Positions 14,660 to 53,213 of a stretch of DNA of 64,000 nt are shown one piece after another (position 1 is the stretch's first letter; each line of letters begins with the position of its first letter). The stretch is from Phytoactinopolyspora halotolerans. Its GTDB lineage: Bacteria; Actinomycetota; Actinomycetes; Jiangellales; Jiangellaceae. The stretch covers positions 62,001 to 126,000 of the forward strand of contig NZ_JAAGOA010000012.1 of NCBI RefSeq assembly GCF_010550675.1. The letters are read 5' to 3'. The notes under the pieces were generated by a model. The model ran no database searches. It was not told where the DNA came from and was given only the letters and a program-made list of their open reading frames with translations. A program made the translations under genes and the position numbers.

Positions 14660-15832
14660 ATGAAGACGCTCCCCGACAACCCGAACCTCGACCATCTGCG
14701 GCGCCAAGCCAAGGACCTCCTGGCCGGTCTCAGAGATTCGCACCCCGACGTATCGCTTGCCGATGCGCAGGCGTCGCTCGCCAGGCAGTACGGCTTCCGC
14801 ACATGGACGGATCTGAAGGCCGAGGTCGACCGCCTTCGAGGCCAGGCCGACATCGCGGACAGCGCATTGACGAGGTCGGTCGCCGAAGGGTTCGGCCTAG
14901 GAGAGCCTATGTGGCCGATGCGGTCGATGGGCTGGGACAACGTCGGCCGGTTGTGGTCACTCGAGACCCGGCGCGGCCGCTGGGTGGCGCGGACGATGGA
15001 CACCTGGATTCCGATCGTCGACGCCGAGACCGACGTCGCACTGCAGCTGGCCGCCGCCGACCACGGTATCCGGCTTCCGATCCCGGTGCGGAGCGCATCC
15101 GGCGCCATCGTCGAGTCGATCGAGGGGCACAGCTGGCGGGTCTACCGGTGGCTGCACTCGGAACCGCCGCTGACCGCGCCAGTCGGCGCCGAAACGGCCC
15201 GCGCTGCGGGCCGGATCCTGGGTACCATCCACCGGCTGGCGCTGCCGGTCGACCGGATCAGCCCGTGGCATGCCGCCCGCCTGACCGGCGTGCGGTGGCC
15301 CGACGTGGCGGCCACGACACAGGCCACCGCCGCACCATGGGCGCCCGCGCTGGTCGAGGCCGTCCCCACCCTCACCGATCTAGAGACGGTCGCCCACGAC
15401 GTGGCGCCGCCCGACCCTGTGCTGTGCCACAACAACTTCACTCCGGGCAACGCGCGGTTGGCCGGCGACGGCACTCTCATCGTCGTCGGCTGGGAGCAGG
15501 CCGGCGGCCAACCGCCGAGTTGGGAACTCGGCGACGCGCTGTGGCACTGGGCGGTCGACCCGGACGGCGGCGTCAACAGCTCCGCCGTCCGGGCTCTGAC
15601 CGACGGCTACCGCTCGACGGCGGGATCGCTCCCGGCGCTGGACATGGGGATGTTCCGGGGCACCGTGATCGGGCTCGGCAACTACGTGTACGAGCAGATC
15701 GAGTGGGCCCTGACCTCCCGCGAGGACGAGGACCGGCGGCACGCCGACCGCAGTGTCAGTCATCTGCTGTCGCATCTGCCGACCCGGGCCACGTTCGAGC
15801 GCATCCTCGGCGAAGTCCGTGGCCGGCCATGA
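14660..15832 (+). CDS. Aminoglycoside-phosphotransferase-fold protein with altered catalytic residues
   Basis: 390 residues. An N-terminal helical module (DNPNLDHLRRQAKDLLAGLRD ... ARQYGFRTWTDLKAEVD, about 8-57) is the one usually attached to ankyrin-repeat proteins. It is fused to a choline-kinase/APH-like domain. The Brenner motif HNDxxxxN reads HNNFTPGN, with Asn259 where the catalytic Asp should be. The metal-binding Asp of the IDWE motif is Gly277 in VVGWEQAG. The protein may therefore be a non-catalytic binder or use other residues. The start ATG follows GAGCGAGGTG. A large palindrome overlaps its stop codon. Confidence 0.75.
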   Translation: MKTLPDNPNLDHLRRQAKDLLAGLRDSHPDVSLADAQASLARQYGFRTWTDLKAEVDRLRGQADIADSALTRSVAEGFGLGEPMWPMRSMGWDNVGRLWSLETRRGRWVARTMDTWIPIVDAETDVALQLAAADHGIRLPIPVRSASGAIVESIEGHSWRVYRWLHSEPPLTAPVGAETARAAGRILGTIHRLALPVDRISPWHAARLTGVRWPDVAATTQATAAPWAPALVEAVPTLTDLETVAHDVAPPDPVLCHNNFTPGNARLAGDGTLIVVGWEQAGGQPPSWELGDALWHWAVDPDGGVNSSAVRALTDGYRSTAGSLPALDMGMFRGTVIGLGNYVYEQIEWALTSREDEDRRHADRSVSHLLSHLPTRATFERILGEVRGRP

Positions 15833-15882
15833 TCATCGAGGAAATGCGGGACCATCACGCCTTCGATCCTCGATGATCATGG
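15827..15882. terminator. Palindromic element copy 1, bidirectional terminator between convergent genes
   Basis: Perfect 16-bp arms (15827-15842 and 15867-15882, CCATGATCATCGAGGA and its complement) with a 24-nt loop. The stop codons of both flanking genes lie inside the element. It belongs to a four-member family whose 50-nt core starts and ends with TGATCA; the core here is 15830-15879. In inverted orientation it matches copy 2 at 45 of 50 positions. Confidence 0.75.
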
Positions 15883-16299
15883 AACGGTAGCCCAGGTCTC
15901 GTGCAAGTGCCTCCAGCGCAACCCGTGTGGGGTGTCGCCGTCACGCGTGAACACGGCGGTGGCGAGGCGCTCGATATGCTCGGCAGCCGTGCCACGGTGC
16001 TCCTCGCGGTACGTGGCCACCACCACATCCGCGTCGGCGGCGACGACAGTCACATCGTGGATCCGGATCTCGATCGCCGGCTCGACGCCGTGCGCCGCAC
16101 GAACCATCTCCAGCACGTCTTCGCGGTGCAGCGTCCGTCCCTCAGGCATGACGAGCGTGAACCCGGCACCCTGGGCGGCACAGAACGCGTCGAAATCCGG
16201 ATCGTCCGGCGTGGCGCGCCCGGAGAGCCACCGTTGGATGATCCGGTGCAGCCGGACGACCTCGTCCTGGACGGCCTGCTCGTCCGTCATGACCGTCAT
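15877..16299 (-). CDS. SnoaL-like/DUF4440 (NTF2-fold) protein
   Basis: 140 residues with the cone-shaped NTF2-like pattern: a long N-terminal helix (DEQAVQDEVVRLHRIIQRWLSG), FDAFCAAQGAGFTLVMPEGRTLHREDVLEMV, then a beta-rich half ending in RWRHLHETWATVP. Such proteins act as small isomerases/hydratases or accessory ligand-binding proteins. The ATG (16299) overlaps the stop of the NmrA-like gene, so the two are co-expressed. The stop codon lies inside palindromic element copy 1. Confidence 0.75.
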   Translation of the reverse strand: MTVMTDEQAVQDEVVRLHRIIQRWLSGRATPDDPDFDAFCAAQGAGFTLVMPEGRTLHREDVLEMVRAAHGVEPAIEIRIHDVTVVAADADVVVATYREEHRGTAAEHIERLATAVFTRDGDTPHGLRWRHLHETWATVP

Positions 16300-17234
16300 A
16301 CCGTCACCTCCGCCCACCCGTGCCACGGCCGGGCGCGAACCCAGTCGTGCAGCGGCGTCAGCGTGATGCCGGCGTGTTTCCCGACCAGGGCTGAGCACGC
16401 GTCGCCTCGCCAATCGCCGCACGAGCGGGCACCATCGTCGGTGGCGAGCCAGCGGTACGTCGACGCGACACCCGCAGCGGCGTCGGCACCGACCGCGTAG
16501 GCGAGGCCGCGCTCGAACTCGTCGACGTCCTGTTCGACGTACGTCACGTCACGCCCCAGCACGGCGCCGATCTCGTCCGCCAGCTCGGCGCCGGTCACCA
16601 CATCCGGGCCGCCCACGCGCACCGTGCCGCCCTCGACGCCGTCCGAGGTGAGCGCGGCGACGGTCGCCGCTGCCAGATCGTCGTGGCTGAGCCACGCCAC
16701 CGGCAGGCCGGCCGGCAGTGGGTAACGCAGCACGCCCTCGCGCACGACAGGCCCGGCCACCCACGGCGCGGCGAGGTTCTCCAGGTAGACCAGCGGAGCG
16801 AGGACGACGGTGGCGACGCCCGAGGCCTGCAGCGCTGCGGCAGCGGCGCGTCGCGTCTCGAACGCGGGCACGTCGGTCGCCGTGTCCGGCACGCCGGTTC
16901 CGGTATTGAACACCATGCGCTGTACGCCCGCCGCGGCCGCCGCCTCGGCGATGTTGTCGACATACGATGCGACGACGTCGGCGTCGAAGACCATCGGAAG
17001 CGTCACCGACACGTGGGTCACGCCCTCGAAGGCGACCATGAGCTGATCCGCATCGGCCAGGTCTCCCACGGCCGGCTGCACGCCGTCCGGTAGCGCGGCG
17101 GTGCCCCGTTCGGATCTCCCGCGGGTCAGGCCGCGGACGCGGTGCCCGGCGCGGAGCAAACCGCGGGCGACCGCACCGCCCTGCGCGCCGGACGCGCCGA
17201 TGATAAGAAAGAGTTGCTGGTCCATGGATGGCAT
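16296..17234 (-). CDS. NmrA-like NAD(P)-binding oxidoreductase
   Basis: 312 residues. A Rossmann motif GASGAQGGAVARGLL at residues 13-27 and RxLTRG after beta2 suggest NADP(H) binding. The C-terminal part (PAGLPVAWLSHDDLAAATVAAL ... GGTVRVGGPDVVTGAELADEIG) is typical of NmrA/HSCARG-type atypical SDRs, which sense or use NAD(P)H and lack the YxxxK catalytic pair. It is divergent from an AraC regulator with 117 bp between starts, and is probably its target. Confidence 0.82.
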   Translation of the reverse strand: MPSMDQQLFLIIGASGAQGGAVARGLLRAGHRVRGLTRGRSERGTAALPDGVQPAVGDLADADQLMVAFEGVTHVSVTLPMVFDADVVASYVDNIAEAAAAAGVQRMVFNTGTGVPDTATDVPAFETRRAAAAALQASGVATVVLAPLVYLENLAAPWVAGPVVREGVLRYPLPAGLPVAWLSHDDLAAATVAALTSDGVEGGTVRVGGPDVVTGAELADEIGAVLGRDVTYVEQDVDEFERGLAYAVGADAAAGVASTYRWLATDDGARSCGDWRGDACSALVGKHAGITLTPLHDWVRARPWHGWAEVTV

Positions 17235-17351
17235 TTCAGAGGGCTCCGTTCATCGGGCGGTGTCTCGATCGGAACCCAGTCTGGTCGCCGCTGGTGTTCC
17301 TATCGATAAAGTGGAGTCCTCGATTCTTCATCGATCGTCCAGAGGTGTGGG

Positions 17352-18329
17352 ATGATCGGGACGCGACGGGCGAGGTTCATGGCATCCGGAGACAGCGACC
17401 TGCTCAGCGAGCTACTCGCGCCGCTGCGCCTGCACGGCGTCTTCCACAGCCGCTGGTCGATGCGCGCGCCATGGGGCATCGCCGGCGAAGGCGAGGATTG
17501 CGCCCTCATCCACTACGTGCACGAGGGCAGATGCATCGTCGAGATGCCCGGCGCCGCCGAGCCGATCGAACTCGAGCCGGGCGATCTTGCGGTCTTCCCG
17601 CACGGCACGGCGCACCGGCTGGGTGACCGCCCCGGCCGGAGCACCGTACCCCTGGTCAGCCTTCTTCCGGACCGGCCACCAGGAGACGCCCGTAGTGTCC
17701 AGCTCGACGGGCCGGGTCCGGTCACCACCATGCTCTGCGGCGGACTGCACTATGACGTCGCGGCGGTGGCCCCGCTCTATCGGGCGCTGCCGACCGTGTT
17801 CGTGCTCGACGCGGATGCGCTGAAGGGGCAACCGCTGCTCGGCGACACCATGGCCCGGCTCGCCGACAATTGGACCGACGACGAGCCGGGCGCCCAGCTC
17901 GTCGCGCTGCGGGCCTTCGAGCTGGCGTTCGTGCTGGCGTTACGGACGGCCCTGAGCACACTCGCCGACGACGAGCCGGTGTGGCGTGCGCTCAACCATC
18001 CGGCCGTCAGCCCGGCACTGCTCGCCGTCCAAACCCGGTTCAACGAGCCGTGGACACTGGAGAAGCTGGCCGCCGAAGCCGGACTGTCGCGCTCGAGCTT
18101 CGCCGCGACCTTCCGGCGGCTCGTCGGGCAGACCCCGATGGAACACCTGGCCGCCCGCCGGCTCCAGGAGGCCGCGCGGCTGCTCATCGAGACGACGCAG
18201 CCGCATGAGCGGATCGCCGAGCGGGTCGGCTACCGCTCCGGCGTCGGCTTCCACCTGGCCTTCCGGAACCGCTACGGCCAGACCCCCGGCGAGTACCGTC
18301 GCACCCGACGCCCCACCTCTCCCTCATGA
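17352..18329 (+). CDS. AraC-family regulator with cupin sensor domain
   Basis: 325 residues. The N-terminal cupin-type sensor (HYVHEGRCIVEMPGAAEPIELEPGDLAVFPHGTAHRL) is followed by two C-terminal HTH motifs (WTLEKLAAEAGLSRSSFAATFRRLVGQTPMEHLAARRLQEA and ERIAERVGYRSGVGFHLAFRNRYGQTPGEYR). The start ATG has AGAGG six bases upstream. It faces away from the NmrA-like/SnoaL-like pair, which it likely controls in response to a small hydrophobic molecule. Its 3' end runs into palindromic element copy 2. Confidence 0.88.
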   Translation: MIGTRRARFMASGDSDLLSELLAPLRLHGVFHSRWSMRAPWGIAGEGEDCALIHYVHEGRCIVEMPGAAEPIELEPGDLAVFPHGTAHRLGDRPGRSTVPLVSLLPDRPPGDARSVQLDGPGPVTTMLCGGLHYDVAAVAPLYRALPTVFVLDADALKGQPLLGDTMARLADNWTDDEPGAQLVALRAFELAFVLALRTALSTLADDEPVWRALNHPAVSPALLAVQTRFNEPWTLEKLAAEAGLSRSSFAATFRRLVGQTPMEHLAARRLQEAARLLIETTQPHERIAERVGYRSGVGFHLAFRNRYGQTPGEYRRTRRPTSPS

Positions 18330-18378
18330 TCATCGAGGATCGGCGGTGTGATGGTCCCGCAGATCCTCGATGATCATG
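18325..18378. terminator. Palindromic element copy 2, bidirectional terminator between convergent genes
   Basis: Perfect 17-bp arms (18325-18341 and 18362-18378) with a 20-nt loop. It overlaps the 3' ends of the AraC gene (plus) and the PAP2 phosphatase gene (minus). The 50-nt core is 18327-18376 and is 90 percent identical to copy 1 read in the opposite orientation. Confidence 0.75.
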
Positions 18379-20350
18379 GGGTGGGCTCCAGGCGGACCGA
18401 GACGCCGTTCGCCGAGTACTCGGCAACGGCCTCATAGCCCTCCACCTCGACATCGAGGTTGACGGTCTGGAACTTCCCACGCACCCGGCGCCCGCGGATC
18501 ACCGGCACGGCCACGCCCGCGGCCGGTGGATGCGCCAGGTCCAGGTGGACATCCAGAACACTGCCCTCCTCCAACGTCACCGGCCGCAGCACGTCCAGCA
18601 CCGGCTCACCGGCGTCGCTCAGGGTCACCTCGAGCACGGTCCCCGACGCCTGCGTGTACGCACCGCGCACCTCCGCCCGGCCGGCGTCCGGGGCGATGCG
18701 CAGGGTGCCGCCCGCGACGTGGACGCCGCCCCTGCCCAACGCGGTGGGCGACCCGGCCACCAGCGTGCCGTCATGCACCTCCGTGCCACCAGTGAAGCCG
18801 TTGTCGCCGGTCAGGGTCAGCGTCCCGGTTCCTCGTTTGACCAGACCACCAGGGCCGTCGATGTCGTTGCGCCACGTGTCCGCGGCGCTGAACCCGCCGT
18901 CGGCGGCGTTCATCTCGACGGTCACATCGTCGCGGAGGGCGCCGTACCCGTCGGCGGCGGCGAAGAGGTTCAGCCTGCCCCACCCCTCCGGGCCGTCCAG
19001 GATCGGATAACCCGCCGGGAGCGCCGTGGTCTGCAGCACCGCCCGTCGTTGCTCGGCGTCGAGGTACGGCAACCGCGTCTCCAGCAGCACCTCCGCACCC
19101 TTGGGCACCGCCAGCTCGGTATCGCGGCCCTGCCGCTGCAGGACGTACGTGAGACGTTCGGTGAACGTCGCCCGGTTGGCCTCGTAGTCGGCGTGGCGAT
19201 CGGTGTCGATCCCGGCCGAGTGCGCGTGCGCGTGCAGCGTGTCCGCCGTCGCTCCGGTCTGTGCCTGGAAATACTCCGCGGCCTGACGTCGGGCGGCCGC
19301 CTTCAGCTCGGCGTACTGCGGGTCGTACAGCACGGCCGCCGCCAGCGCGGTCGCAAGGACGCGACCGCCGATCACGTCGACCGGCGAGTGCATACCGCTC
19401 TCGATCCTACTGTGGCCGACGTCCGACGCCCGCGTCAGCAGCTCCTGGAACCGCTCCGGGATGGCGTAAGCCAGGGCCAGTGCGGCGAGGTAGGCGGCGT
19501 TCGTGTGCCCGCTGGGGTAGCCGCCGTCCCGTTCTGGCGTGTCGCTGCGCTGCCGCAGCAGCTGCGGCGCCACCGCCACGTCGCAGTCGTAGACCGGGAA
19601 ACCCATGACGGGGATGCCATCGGTCTCGACAACCTCGCTGTCCAGGGTCATCCGCCATGGACGCGGATACTGGAAGGTGTACTTGCTCGGGTTGCTCGAC
19701 GCGTGCGGTCCACGGATGGTGTTCACCAGCTCGACGACGAGGCCCAGCTCGGAGTCTGGCGAACCCGCACCCGTGGCCGAGCCCTCGGGCGCGTCGTCCG
19801 GCACGCCGTCACTGACCTTCTCTGGCGGGGTGCCGTCCGGCGCGGCCGTGATGCTGGTGACGGCCTTGGCGCCCGTCCGGTACACATCCGTCAGCGGCCC
19901 CAGCCCTCCGGTGGCGCTGTAGCTCTGGTGCTGCCGGTCATCGATGAAGGACTGTTTGGCCTCGGCGTCGGTGCGCTCGGCCGTCGTGTCGATGACGAAA
20001 CGGATGTTCTCGCGCAGCTGATCCCGGTCGAGGACCACGCCGTCGTCCCAGGAGCCGCCGGTCTTCCACAGCTCCTCCATCCCGGACAGGATCCGGACGG
20101 CCGCGTTCGTCTCCTTGCTGAGGTTGTCCGTGGAGTTGGTGAGGTAGTCGTCGACGAACGCCTTCCCCGCTACAGCCGACGTGAGCGGTTGGCCGAAGGC
20201 GCCGGTCGCGGCCGGCACGGCTGGGGCCGCCGCCGACTGCGAACCTGCCACGAAGGTCACCGCCGACGAACCGGCGACCAGCCCGGCGGAGACACCCGCC
20301 GAACCTCGCAGGAAACTCCGCCGGTCCATCGTCCTTCGCCTGGTCTTCAT
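18374..20350 (-). CDS. Secreted PAP2-type phosphatase with C-terminal beta-repeat segment
   Basis: 658 residues. A twin-arginine signal (DRRSFLRGSAG) is at the N-terminus. The three PAP2/class A acid phosphatase motifs are complete: K223-x6-R230-P231, PSGH at 279-282, and S314-R-x5-H321-x3-D325, so a vanadate-type phosphohisitidine mechanism is expected. The last ~200 residues include a segment (LVKRGTGTLTLTGDNGFTGG ... DGTLVAGSPTALG) like autotransporter-associated beta-strand repeats, an unusual tail for a phosphatase. GGAGGAAGAGG precedes the chosen ATG. It probably scavenges phosphate outside the cell, like the PhoD gene 1.4 kb away. Confidence 0.82.
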   Translation of the reverse strand: MKTRRRTMDRRSFLRGSAGVSAGLVAGSSAVTFVAGSQSAAAPAVPAATGAFGQPLTSAVAGKAFVDDYLTNSTDNLSKETNAAVRILSGMEELWKTGGSWDDGVVLDRDQLRENIRFVIDTTAERTDAEAKQSFIDDRQHQSYSATGGLGPLTDVYRTGAKAVTSITAAPDGTPPEKVSDGVPDDAPEGSATGAGSPDSELGLVVELVNTIRGPHASSNPSKYTFQYPRPWRMTLDSEVVETDGIPVMGFPVYDCDVAVAPQLLRQRSDTPERDGGYPSGHTNAAYLAALALAYAIPERFQELLTRASDVGHSRIESGMHSPVDVIGGRVLATALAAAVLYDPQYAELKAAARRQAAEYFQAQTGATADTLHAHAHSAGIDTDRHADYEANRATFTERLTYVLQRQGRDTELAVPKGAEVLLETRLPYLDAEQRRAVLQTTALPAGYPILDGPEGWGRLNLFAAADGYGALRDDVTVEMNAADGGFSAADTWRNDIDGPGGLVKRGTGTLTLTGDNGFTGGTEVHDGTLVAGSPTALGRGGVHVAGGTLRIAPDAGRAEVRGAYTQASGTVLEVTLSDAGEPVLDVLRPVTLEEGSVLDVHLDLAHPPAAGVAVPVIRGRRVRGKFQTVNLDVEVEGYEAVAEYSANGVSVRLEPTP

Positions 20351-20375
20351 CCTCTTCCTCCAGTCGCGAGACCCG

Positions 20376-20427
20376 GTGATCATCAACGGTGAGACCCGGC
20401 ATGATGCGGGAGCCGGTCGATGATCAC
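20376..20427. repeat. Palindromic element copy 3, in an upstream region
   Basis: The 50-nt core 20377-20426 begins and ends with TGATCA, has 9-bp perfect terminal arms (20376-20384/20419-20427), and matches copy 4 (inverted) at 40 of 50 positions. Unlike the other copies it lies upstream of the PAP2 gene, not between convergent 3' ends, so a terminator role is less obvious here. Confidence 0.65.
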
Positions 20428-20434
20428 GGGGGTT

Positions 20435-20448
20435 GGTAAGCGCTTTCT
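20435..20448. promoter_or_regulatory. LacI-family-like operator upstream of the PAP2 gene
   Basis: The centre AAGCGCTT (20438-20445) within ggtaagcgctttct is the palindromic core typical of LacI/CcpA-type operators. It lies about 85 bp before the phosphatase start. Similar cores occur at 35955-36034 beside the LacI gene of this window. A sugar regulator might bind here, but a single 8-bp core is weak evidence. Confidence 0.3.
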
Positions 20449-20622
20449 GAACCATGCCATAGCAGTAGATGTCTGTAAATACTTTTGTCCTTACATGCTG
20501 ACCTTGTCGGAGCCCGCCCGCGTCGTCGCGCCAAGCGTCGGAGAGTTCTTGTCGCTCTGGCAGTAAAACTCTTCCGACGCTCGGCACGCACGTCACGCGC
20601 GCATCGGCGCCACGATGGCGAC

Positions 20623-21663
20623 ATGGCCATGATGCGCAGTGCGCCCGCCGAGCGCGGCACCACCACCGTCACCGGCGGAACCGGCTGGCGTGGTGGTCGA
20701 GTGGCCCTGAGCGCTCTGATCTGGACTACCAGCTACAGTGCGCTGCGGGTGTATTGGCAGGTCACCGGAGAACCCGGCGAGATGTCGCCGATCGGAGACG
20801 ACCTCGTCGCCTTCACCGGCTGGGGCGCGGTCATCCTCTGCGGGCTGGCTGCCATCACCGCCGGCGGCCTGGCCTGGGCGGGTAGGGCCTGCTCGGGCAT
20901 CACCGGCCCGGTACGACGCATGCTGCTCGCCGCGGGATGGACCACCAGCCTGGGCCTCGTCGCCTCCGGGGCGATGCTGCTGCTGGACATCGTGGGCGGC
21001 GTGTTGCCCGGCCTCGGCGTCGAGTTCTATCCCCGGGGCGCGCTGAGCCGGGTGACGTGCGTCGGCGGCGGAGCGATGCTGGCCGTGGCTACCTGGTCTC
21101 TGCAGGGTCGCACCGGCGCCCGATGCCGGGACTGCGGACGGAGCTGGGCGGCCATGCGTGCGCTCCCGCGGACACCTCGGTGGGCATTCGGCATGGCCTA
21201 TGTCGCCGTACTGGGTTTCCTCGTCCGACTCGTCGCGCAACTCGTCGTCGGACTGAACGAGTCGCCACTGACGACCGGCATGTCCCTGCTGCTCTTCGAG
21301 TTCGGGTTCGTGCTTGCCGGCACGCTGCTGCCGCTCGCGCTTGTTCATCGGTGGGGCCGGATCTGGCCGCGGTGGGCCGTCGGGTTGGCCGGCCGGCGGG
21401 TACCTCGGTGGCTGGTTCTGGGCCCGGCAGCCGGCATCGCGGGTGGACTCGTCATCTATTTCGGTCTGCTGCTCGGCCAGATGACCGTGGCACGGCTCAA
21501 CGGGCGGAACCCGTTTCCACCGTCGGGCGGCCTCGACCTGCCCGAGGCGTTCTTCTGGTTCGCCGTCCCCGCGTACCTGGTATGGGGGATCGGGGTGGCC
21601 GCCGCCGCGCTGGCGTACTTCCGCCGCACCCGACGGCCATGCCCGACCTGCACATCCCCATGA
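20623..21663 (+). CDS. Polytopic membrane protein of unknown function
   Basis: 346 residues with about eight hydrophobic segments spread over the whole length. Cytosolic-looking CxxC pairs occur at RCRDCGRSW (about residue 169) and at the extreme C-terminus (RPCPTCTSP), which might bind zinc or form disulfides. I do not recognise a named family. The ATG at 20623 was chosen over upstream codons, which read as Arg/His-rich noise. It lies between two secreted phosphatase genes that point towards and away from it. Its stop overlaps palindromic element copy 4. Confidence 0.7.
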   Translation: MAMMRSAPAERGTTTVTGGTGWRGGRVALSALIWTTSYSALRVYWQVTGEPGEMSPIGDDLVAFTGWGAVILCGLAAITAGGLAWAGRACSGITGPVRRMLLAAGWTTSLGLVASGAMLLLDIVGGVLPGLGVEFYPRGALSRVTCVGGGAMLAVATWSLQGRTGARCRDCGRSWAAMRALPRTPRWAFGMAYVAVLGFLVRLVAQLVVGLNESPLTTGMSLLLFEFGFVLAGTLLPLALVHRWGRIWPRWAVGLAGRRVPRWLVLGPAAGIAGGLVIYFGLLLGQMTVARLNGRNPFPPSGGLDLPEAFFWFAVPAYLVWGIGVAAAALAYFRRTRRPCPTCTSP

Positions 21664-21712
21664 TCATCAACCGCTGGTCGCACCATGACCGGTCCCACCG
21701 TTGATGATCATC
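21658..21712. terminator. Palindromic element copy 4, bidirectional terminator between convergent genes
   Basis: Terminal arms ATGATCATCAAC (21660-21671) and its exact complement (21700-21711) enclose a 28-nt centre. It fills the 51-bp gap between the convergent membrane-protein and PhoD genes. The 50-nt core is 21661-21710 and is the inverted relative of copy 3. Confidence 0.7.
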
Positions 21713-21714
21713 GG

Positions 21715-53158: not shown

Positions 53159-53213
53159 CCTTTGCAATGCACACATATACGCACCGCCCGCGTATATGTG
53201 TGCATTGCAAAGG
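53159..53213. repeat. Perfect hairpin with 24-bp arms
   Basis: The left arm 53159-53182 and right arm 53190-53213 are exact complements over 24 bp, with a 7-nt loop (accgccc). The arms contain AT-rich stretches (cacatatac), unlike the surrounding DNA. It lies between divergent genes, 135 bp before the pterin-dehydratase/VOC gene, so it is not a terminator of either. It could be an operator, a cruciform or the stem of an RNA. Confidence 0.85.

Follow-up and report, generated by a model that had tools for sequence, protein, structure and literature searches.

A 64,000 nt stretch of the Phytoactinopolyspora halotolerans genome (contig NZ_JAAGOA010000012.1, positions 62,001 to 126,000; hereafter the window) contains four palindromes that belong to a palindromic repeat family dispersed through the Jiangellaceae, a group of soil bacteria. 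They are probably the solo copies of a system that resembles the REPtrons of repetitive extragenic palindromes (REPs), with sequence classes set by resident, palindrome-bracketed genes for AbiEi/Vsr-like proteins that are not homologous to the REP-associated tyrosine transposase (RAYT). The copies of the family fall into classes, palindromes bracket one gene family and match in class within each unit, and class co-varies with a predicted recognition helix. An earlier note on this DNA, made from sequence alone, had reported the four palindromes, and their cores were all recovered at the coordinates it gave (Table 1), each exactly 50 nt long with TGATCA at either end. The identities also hold (45/50 for copies 1 and 2, 40/50 for copies 3 and 4, with one copy of each pair inverted), as does the location of copies 1, 2 and 4 between convergent genes, where they contain or adjoin both stop codons.

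Copy number, structure and placement of the repeat

The source genome (7.30 Mb, 65 contigs) was searched with a strict pattern, TGATCATC-N30..38-GATGATCA, and with the reversed pattern as a control. The strict pattern found 40 copies, 37 of them exactly 50 nt, against none for the reversed pattern, so the family is not a product of chance. Further copies in the genome and its relatives, which the earlier note had proposed to look for, are present in 20 of the 22 Jiangellaceae genomes (1–90 copies each). Outside this family the strict pattern occurs in 2 of the 38 other genomes of the class, with a single match in each, and with a somewhat relaxed pattern the count in Jiangella gansuensis is 110. 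Runs of N adjoin palindromes or units (L080 in the P. endophytica genome, G002; L186 in the source genome, G000), which suggests that draft assemblies break at these places and that copy numbers are lower bounds. Two genomes (G001 and G003) that are poor in the strict pattern are rich in other intergenic palindromes (L089-L095, L081-L086), such as GGTGATCGTCAGTGCG and GTGATCGTGAGCGG.

The palindrome runs past the 50 nt core. Across 84 copies the consensus is CCCA-TGATCATC...GATGATCA-TGGG, and the paired CCCA/TGGG flanks extend the unit to about 56–60 nt, correcting the 50 nt given earlier. The ends of the element are constant while the inner arms fall into classes, such as GAGGATC (copies 1 and 2), AACCGT (copies 3 and 4), AAGACTT, GGCGATC and GTTCCCTCGCGG, and the length of the core is fixed at 49–50 nt. 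Two identical copies on one contig of the source genome (G000:C9) reflect a duplicated histidine-kinase gene that carries the element. Rfam gave no match in the 12 kb around the four window copies at E values up to 1.

Genes for the analysis of placement were called with a simple codon-usage caller, without curated annotation. In sampled DNA that is 88% coding, none of the 75 copies with gene calls lies inside a gene, and the intragenic or random positions that had been named as signs of chance or local duplication are not what was found. Of these copies, 31 lie between convergent, 37 between tandem and 7 between divergent genes. The convergent share is 41%, whereas 16% of gene pairs are convergent (p = 2e-7), which bears out the expected enrichment. 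Where a gene end faces an element (96 cases), the terminal TGA serves as its stop codon 38 times, and the ATG of ATGATCA is overlapped by the starts of some genes. Placement between genes and at 3' ends is accompanied by turnover between species. One J. gansuensis copy is absent from a relative (G020), whose site reads CTCATGAGTG; at the counterpart in J. gansuensis the element provides the stop of the upstream gene. At a second site G020 has an apparent internally deleted remnant, and seven other species are without the element. The repeats are numerous, intergenic and of more than one sequence class within a genome, and their occupancy differs among related species; in this they are REP-like and dispersed, as had been supposed.

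The bracketed gene and its recognition helix

Comparison of J. gansuensis with G020 revealed a gene lying between two exact inverted copies of the palindrome, where G020 has one palindrome with the same flanks. Among 1406 called genes, all close homologs of this gene flanked elements, and there are up to eight such genes per Jiangellaceae genome. An N-terminal AbiEi domain was recognized by Pfam (AbiEi_4, PF13338) in 29 of 39 sequences and by PADLOC in 39/39. The AlphaFold model of the bracketed protein (predicted local distance difference test score 90.5) matched the AbiEi antitoxin 6y8q in Foldseek (E 1.5e-7). Its C-terminal part matched an endonuclease-like protein (3hrl; probability 1.00 and target template modelling (TM) score 0.75, with a weak E of 0.08) and the homing endonuclease domain of I-Bth0305I (3r3p; probability 0.97, target TM 0.71–0.74, with a similarly weak E of 0.2). 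Residues D228, E239, D241, H246 and D254 are invariant in the 39 sequences, of which only 7 match Pfam DUF559. As judged from this model, the bracketed protein is an AbiEi-type winged helix joined to a predicted Vsr-like nuclease fold of the I-Bth0305I/DUF559 type. At three loci (L147, L150 and L160) the C-terminus runs into the downstream palindrome, giving ..PMII(N/K).. extensions. Distant AbiEi-type homologs within Jiangellaceae (26–33% identity; L156, L157, L202, L204 and L207) adjoin other palindromes, including TCACCTGATC.., CGACATTGTC.. and GAACCGACATC...

Bracketing was scored as a palindrome within 400 nt of the gene at 59 close-clade Jiangellaceae loci and at 801 control genes. Palindromes were present on both sides at 37 of the loci and on at least one side at 50, whereas control genes had one upstream in 21/801 cases, downstream in 35/801 and on both sides in only one, itself a member of the family. 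The upstream copy lies 58–197 nt before the gene match and the downstream copy 1–46 nt after it. Of the nine loci without a palindrome, most show decayed halves or coincide with gaps or the ends of contigs. The two copies that flank a gene share 93% identity, whereas copies from different loci share 58%, or 54% if the loci belong to one genome. J. gansuensis has four close paralogs, bracketed by four palindrome classes, and the 62 copies listed for this genome all belong to these four (29, 13, 10 and 10). Units of J. gansuensis lie near 1621199, 994171, 3313732 and 2804253. The palindrome class that brackets a nuclease-gene unit of the source genome (G000:C23:62502) is that of window copies 1 and 2.

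A second conserved feature of the units is the DnaA-box-like sequence TTRTCCACAG (one mismatch allowed), which stands on the sense strand between the upstream palindrome and the start codon of the nuclease gene. It was found upstream of the gene at 53 of the 59 family loci (e.g., L139, L160 and L173) and at 22 of 46 loci outside Jiangellaceae, while 8 of 828 control genes have it. The box adjoins just 3 of 84 elements, which are the bracketed units of that set. It suggests that expression or action of the gene may be linked to replication.

The relation between palindrome and protein was examined at 48 loci by comparing inner-arm similarity with the identity of each protein half (500 permutations). 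Inner-arm similarity rises with identity in the N-terminal half (partial r 0.52, 0/500 permutations), and identity in the C-terminal, nuclease half shows no such relation (partial r -0.03, 309/500). The best window, residues 16–40, covers the predicted recognition helix, and the signal stays when the 50 nt classes alone are considered (0.27, 0/500). For example, LTQRRIGW goes with AACCGnTGGCGAC, LTDRRIEW with GGCGATCGACCAC, LTEDALTW with GGCGATCACTGG, LDxRVARRW with GTTCCCTCGCGG and ITPDQLRW with GAGGATCC. Mean identity of the N-terminal half is 0.80 for pairs of the same class at different sites and 0.75 for pairs of different classes at the same site, and the order is reversed for the C-terminal half (0.80 and 0.82), these means being only supporting because the pairs are not independent. 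The co-variation strongly implies that the protein would bind its palindrome via the winged helix, and such paired palindrome and protein sequences would make a ready-made protein–DNA recognition code.

Could binding be all that there is? The palindromes might be operators only, with the upstream copy autoregulating an AbiEi-type repressor, the downstream copy serving as a terminator, the dispersed copies forming a regulon or decoys, and the nuclease having another job. In S. agalactiae, AbiEi acts as a repressor of its own promoter by binding inverted repeats that form a 23+3+23-nt (49-nt) palindrome (PMC3985639), an operator size close to that of the cores that may explain their fixed length, and the upstream copy stands 58–197 nt before the gene match. 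Dispersed copies, however, seldom occupy divergent promoter regions (7/75); they are placed at the 3' ends of unrelated genes, where they often form the stop codon. Nor would a regulon account for copy numbers that reach 110, for downstream copies that are identical or for the turnover seen among species, and this explanation is judged unlikely.

The palindromes have a further likely property in their folding. All four window copies form strong hairpins on both strands (RNA z-scores from -3.5 to -7.3; Table 1), and that they act as bidirectional terminators, a role read from position and folding, is plausible. Plain terminators that work in both directions and owe their form to selection at the site, with neither mobility nor a cognate protein, would account for the convergent enrichment, for hairpins on both strands and for the stop codons adjoining elements. 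They would not account for discrete classes in each genome with a fixed length, for matching copies that bracket one gene family only, or for the way in which class varies with the recognition helix. Moreover, of the parts of a canonical intrinsic terminator, the hairpin is present at the four sites but a U-tract was not found, the flank there being TGGG. Hairpin terminators without a U-tract have been claimed for actinobacteria. The repeat is not an ordinary terminator repeat, and plain terminators are a very improbable explanation.

Mechanism, mobility and related systems

In the mechanism proposed here for the REPtron-like system, the protein would bind the palindrome through its winged helix and the nuclease would cut at or beside it, after which repair or recombination via the shared ends may copy, convert or delete units and so give rise to solo palindromes. 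Solos, either direct copies or remnants comparable to solo long terminal repeats (solo LTRs), would persist at gene 3' ends, supplying stop codons and probably serving as bidirectional 3'-end hairpins or terminators. Mobilization by the nuclease and termination at the palindromes are both inferred. A variant compatible with this mechanism treats all solos as scars, left when a unit inserts and palindrome–palindrome recombination deletes the gene, as in solo LTRs. It would fit the palindrome-gene-palindrome arrangement of J. gansuensis opposite a single palindrome with the same flanks in G020, the decayed gene beside palindromes in L200 and the large excess of solos over units, and it makes separate copying of 50 nt pieces unnecessary. 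The solo of G020, however, has G020's own class, so class conversion or independent insertion would be required as well; the step from unit to solo is not seen within any one species, and units remain at shared sites. The variant is possible, and is held tentatively.

Relatives of the nuclease occur across Actinomycetes. At loci outside Jiangellaceae, the flanks share a repeat scoring above the 99th centile of cross-locus pairs in 32 of 45 cases, usually an imperfect palindrome that differs from locus to locus, and in Gordonia liuliyuniae the palindrome class of that genome is present in five additional dispersed copies. Several results weigh against the REPtron-like reading. Palindromes on both sides are lacking at 22 of the 59 close-clade loci, and for class B, that of window copies 3 and 4, no bracketed gene was found in this draft assembly. 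In Nakamurella, Nocardioides Root190, Gordonia polyisoprenivorans and G. oryzae, strict patterns recovered the two bracketing copies and no others, so wide dispersal is not universal. Target-site duplications were not found, observed values equalling expectation at every offset and length tested. In addition, units stand at shared sites in many species and no nuclease unit was found in the plasmid collection, from which it follows that movement of whole units is rare. The phage collection gave a single nuclease homolog (33% identity, MT835975.1:8512-9408), in a 14-kb record that comes from human faeces and carries no annotation.

The earlier note had suggested a REP-like or mobile element recruited as a terminator, and proposed a search for a RAYT-like gene in the genome. 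The REP-like dispersal stands, and the RAYT gene does not: Y1_Tnp (PF01797) is present in 0/20 Jiangellaceae genomes, with 5 of 14 control genomes positive, and an AbiEi-like/Vsr-like gene holds the RAYT position. A classical REP/RAYT system with an HUH Y1 transposase would share the general architecture seen here, with a palindrome-flanked gene and palindromes scattered over intergenic 3' ends (PMC3733652). However, the bracketed gene is of a different fold, the flank composition gives no GTAG tag next to the palindrome, and the Y1 enzyme is absent from the 20 family genomes, leaving this explanation with next to no probability; it is rejected for the genomes tested.

The likeness to the REPtrons of proteobacteria extends to short palindromes scattered through tandem and convergent intergenic gaps and to co-evolution of enzyme and palindrome, with a gene that is rare or absent on plasmids (PMC3733652, PMC8266576). 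A further shared trait is that the palindromes bracketing the gene (here on both sides at 37/59 loci) are of one class and that this class also has dispersed copies. TnpA-REP behaves like a housekeeping gene (PMC8266576), and the Jiangellaceae units, with their shared sites and their absence from the plasmid collection, are comparable. The differences are that the protein combines an AbiEi winged helix with a Vsr-like nuclease fold in place of the HUH Y1 transposase, that the elements are 49–50 nt (56–60 nt with flanks) and not 20–40 bp, and that a DnaA-like box lies upstream of the gene. No GTAG (or CGTC) end tag was found, both outward flanks being the symmetric TGGG. The system works like a REPtron, yet is not a member of that group, because two defining features, the Y1 gene and the GTAG tag, are lacking.

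Type IV toxin–antitoxin systems of the AbiE type offer another parallel, with an N-terminal winged helix, the AbiEi fold and an operator-sized upstream palindrome (PMC3985639). The present protein differs in its extra nuclease-like domain, and its palindromes are found downstream and dispersed as well. There is no second open reading frame for an AbiEii toxin inside the unit, because the flank spacing leaves room for one gene, a result that covers only the interval between the palindromes. The predicted C-terminal domain recalls Vsr-like I-Bth0305I and DUF559 proteins in its Foldseek matches and conserved catalytic-type residues; unlike I-Bth0305I, it is fused to an AbiEi domain, bracketed by palindromes and located outside any intron or intein, and its nuclease activity is a prediction. 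The MIRU (mycobacterial interspersed repetitive units), described by Supply et al. in 1997, are reportedly intergenic repeats with ends that overlap stop and start codons (TGA/ATG). By description only, they resemble the present elements, whose ends overlap stop codons (38/96) and some gene starts. To our knowledge, MIRU are neither palindromic nor known to bracket a cognate gene.

HUH/RAYT is the one class of enzymes so far linked to palindromes of the REP type, and for some REPs, such as the CGTC REPs, no enzyme is known (PMC3733652). In the present system the RAYT position is occupied by a nuclease-like family that is not homologous to RAYT and comes with cognate palindromes; it appears to be a new class of enzyme underlying dispersed palindromes. 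This family is easily counted as defence because annotation libraries label it 'AbiEi antitoxin' or DUF559. There is a reasonable chance that the system will deserve a class of its own once the enzyme is assayed. An even chance is given to the broader proposal of an unrecognised element class of Actinomycetes, consisting of an AbiEi-Vsr-like gene, a DnaA-box-like site and two palindromes specified by the helix, whose nuclease would spread or convert palindromes without a known transposase and whose palindromes host genes would adopt as stops and shared 3' ends. The system also offers a handle on the dispersal of 50 nt palindromes and on the remodelling of gene 3' ends. No earlier report of palindromes with DUF559/AbiEi or Vsr, or of actinobacterial REPs, was found, subscription literature lying outside the search.

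The window palindromes and their neighbours

Table 1. Palindromes and adjoining host genes in the window (gene functions judged by eye; z, RNA hairpin z-scores on both strands).
Feature	Position	Strand	Details
Copy 1, class A (inner arm GAGGAT)	15827..15882, core 15830-15879	none	Paired flanks CCA/TGG; terminal TGAs 15830-15832 and 15877-15879 are the stop codons of both convergent genes; z -5.3/-4.9
Copy 2, class A	18322..18381, core 18327-18376	none	Terminal TGAs 18327-18329 and 18374-18376 are the stop codons of both convergent genes; z -7.0/-7.3
Copy 3, class B (inner arm AACGG/AACCG)	20374..20429, core 20377-20426	none	Between divergent genes, upstream of a gene start; z -3.5/-4.1
Copy 4, class B	21657..21714, core 21661-21710	none	Stop of + gene inside element (21661-21663, terminal TGA), stop of - gene 4 nt beyond (21715); z -4.0/-5.0
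Phosphotransferase-like gene	14660..15832	+	Stop is a terminal TGA of copy 1
SnoaL/NTF2-like gene	15877..16299	-	Stop is the other terminal TGA of copy 1
AraC-type regulator gene	17379..18329	+	Stop is a terminal TGA of copy 2
Phosphatase-like gene	18374..20329	-	Stop is the other TGA of copy 2; orthologs in G001 and G002
Membrane-protein-like gene	20623..21663	+	Bracketed by copies 3 and 4

In P. endophytica the site of copy 2 also holds a palindrome of the same class. Copy 3 is not at its site in that genome and another hairpin is found there instead. A Pfam scan of the membrane-protein-like gene returned no family above the cut-off, and no gene was called at the matching position in P. endophytica. 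When copies 1 and 2, and copies 3 and 4, are considered as the ends of cassettes, the latter pair encloses a gene outside the nuclease family, and P. endophytica has other palindromes and an assembly gap at that place.

Adjoining copy 3, and upstream of the phosphatase-like gene, is the sequence GGTAAGCGCTTTCTG (window 20429-20445), which is conserved in P. endophytica and which we take to resemble a LacI-type operator. Elsewhere in the window (53159-53213) there is a perfect 24-bp inverted repeat, CCTTTGCAATGCACACATATACGC, resembling the palindrome CTTTGCAATGAGCACCAATACGC of a Jiangella genome (G015; L107:14492-14570), and the two possibly represent another dispersed family.

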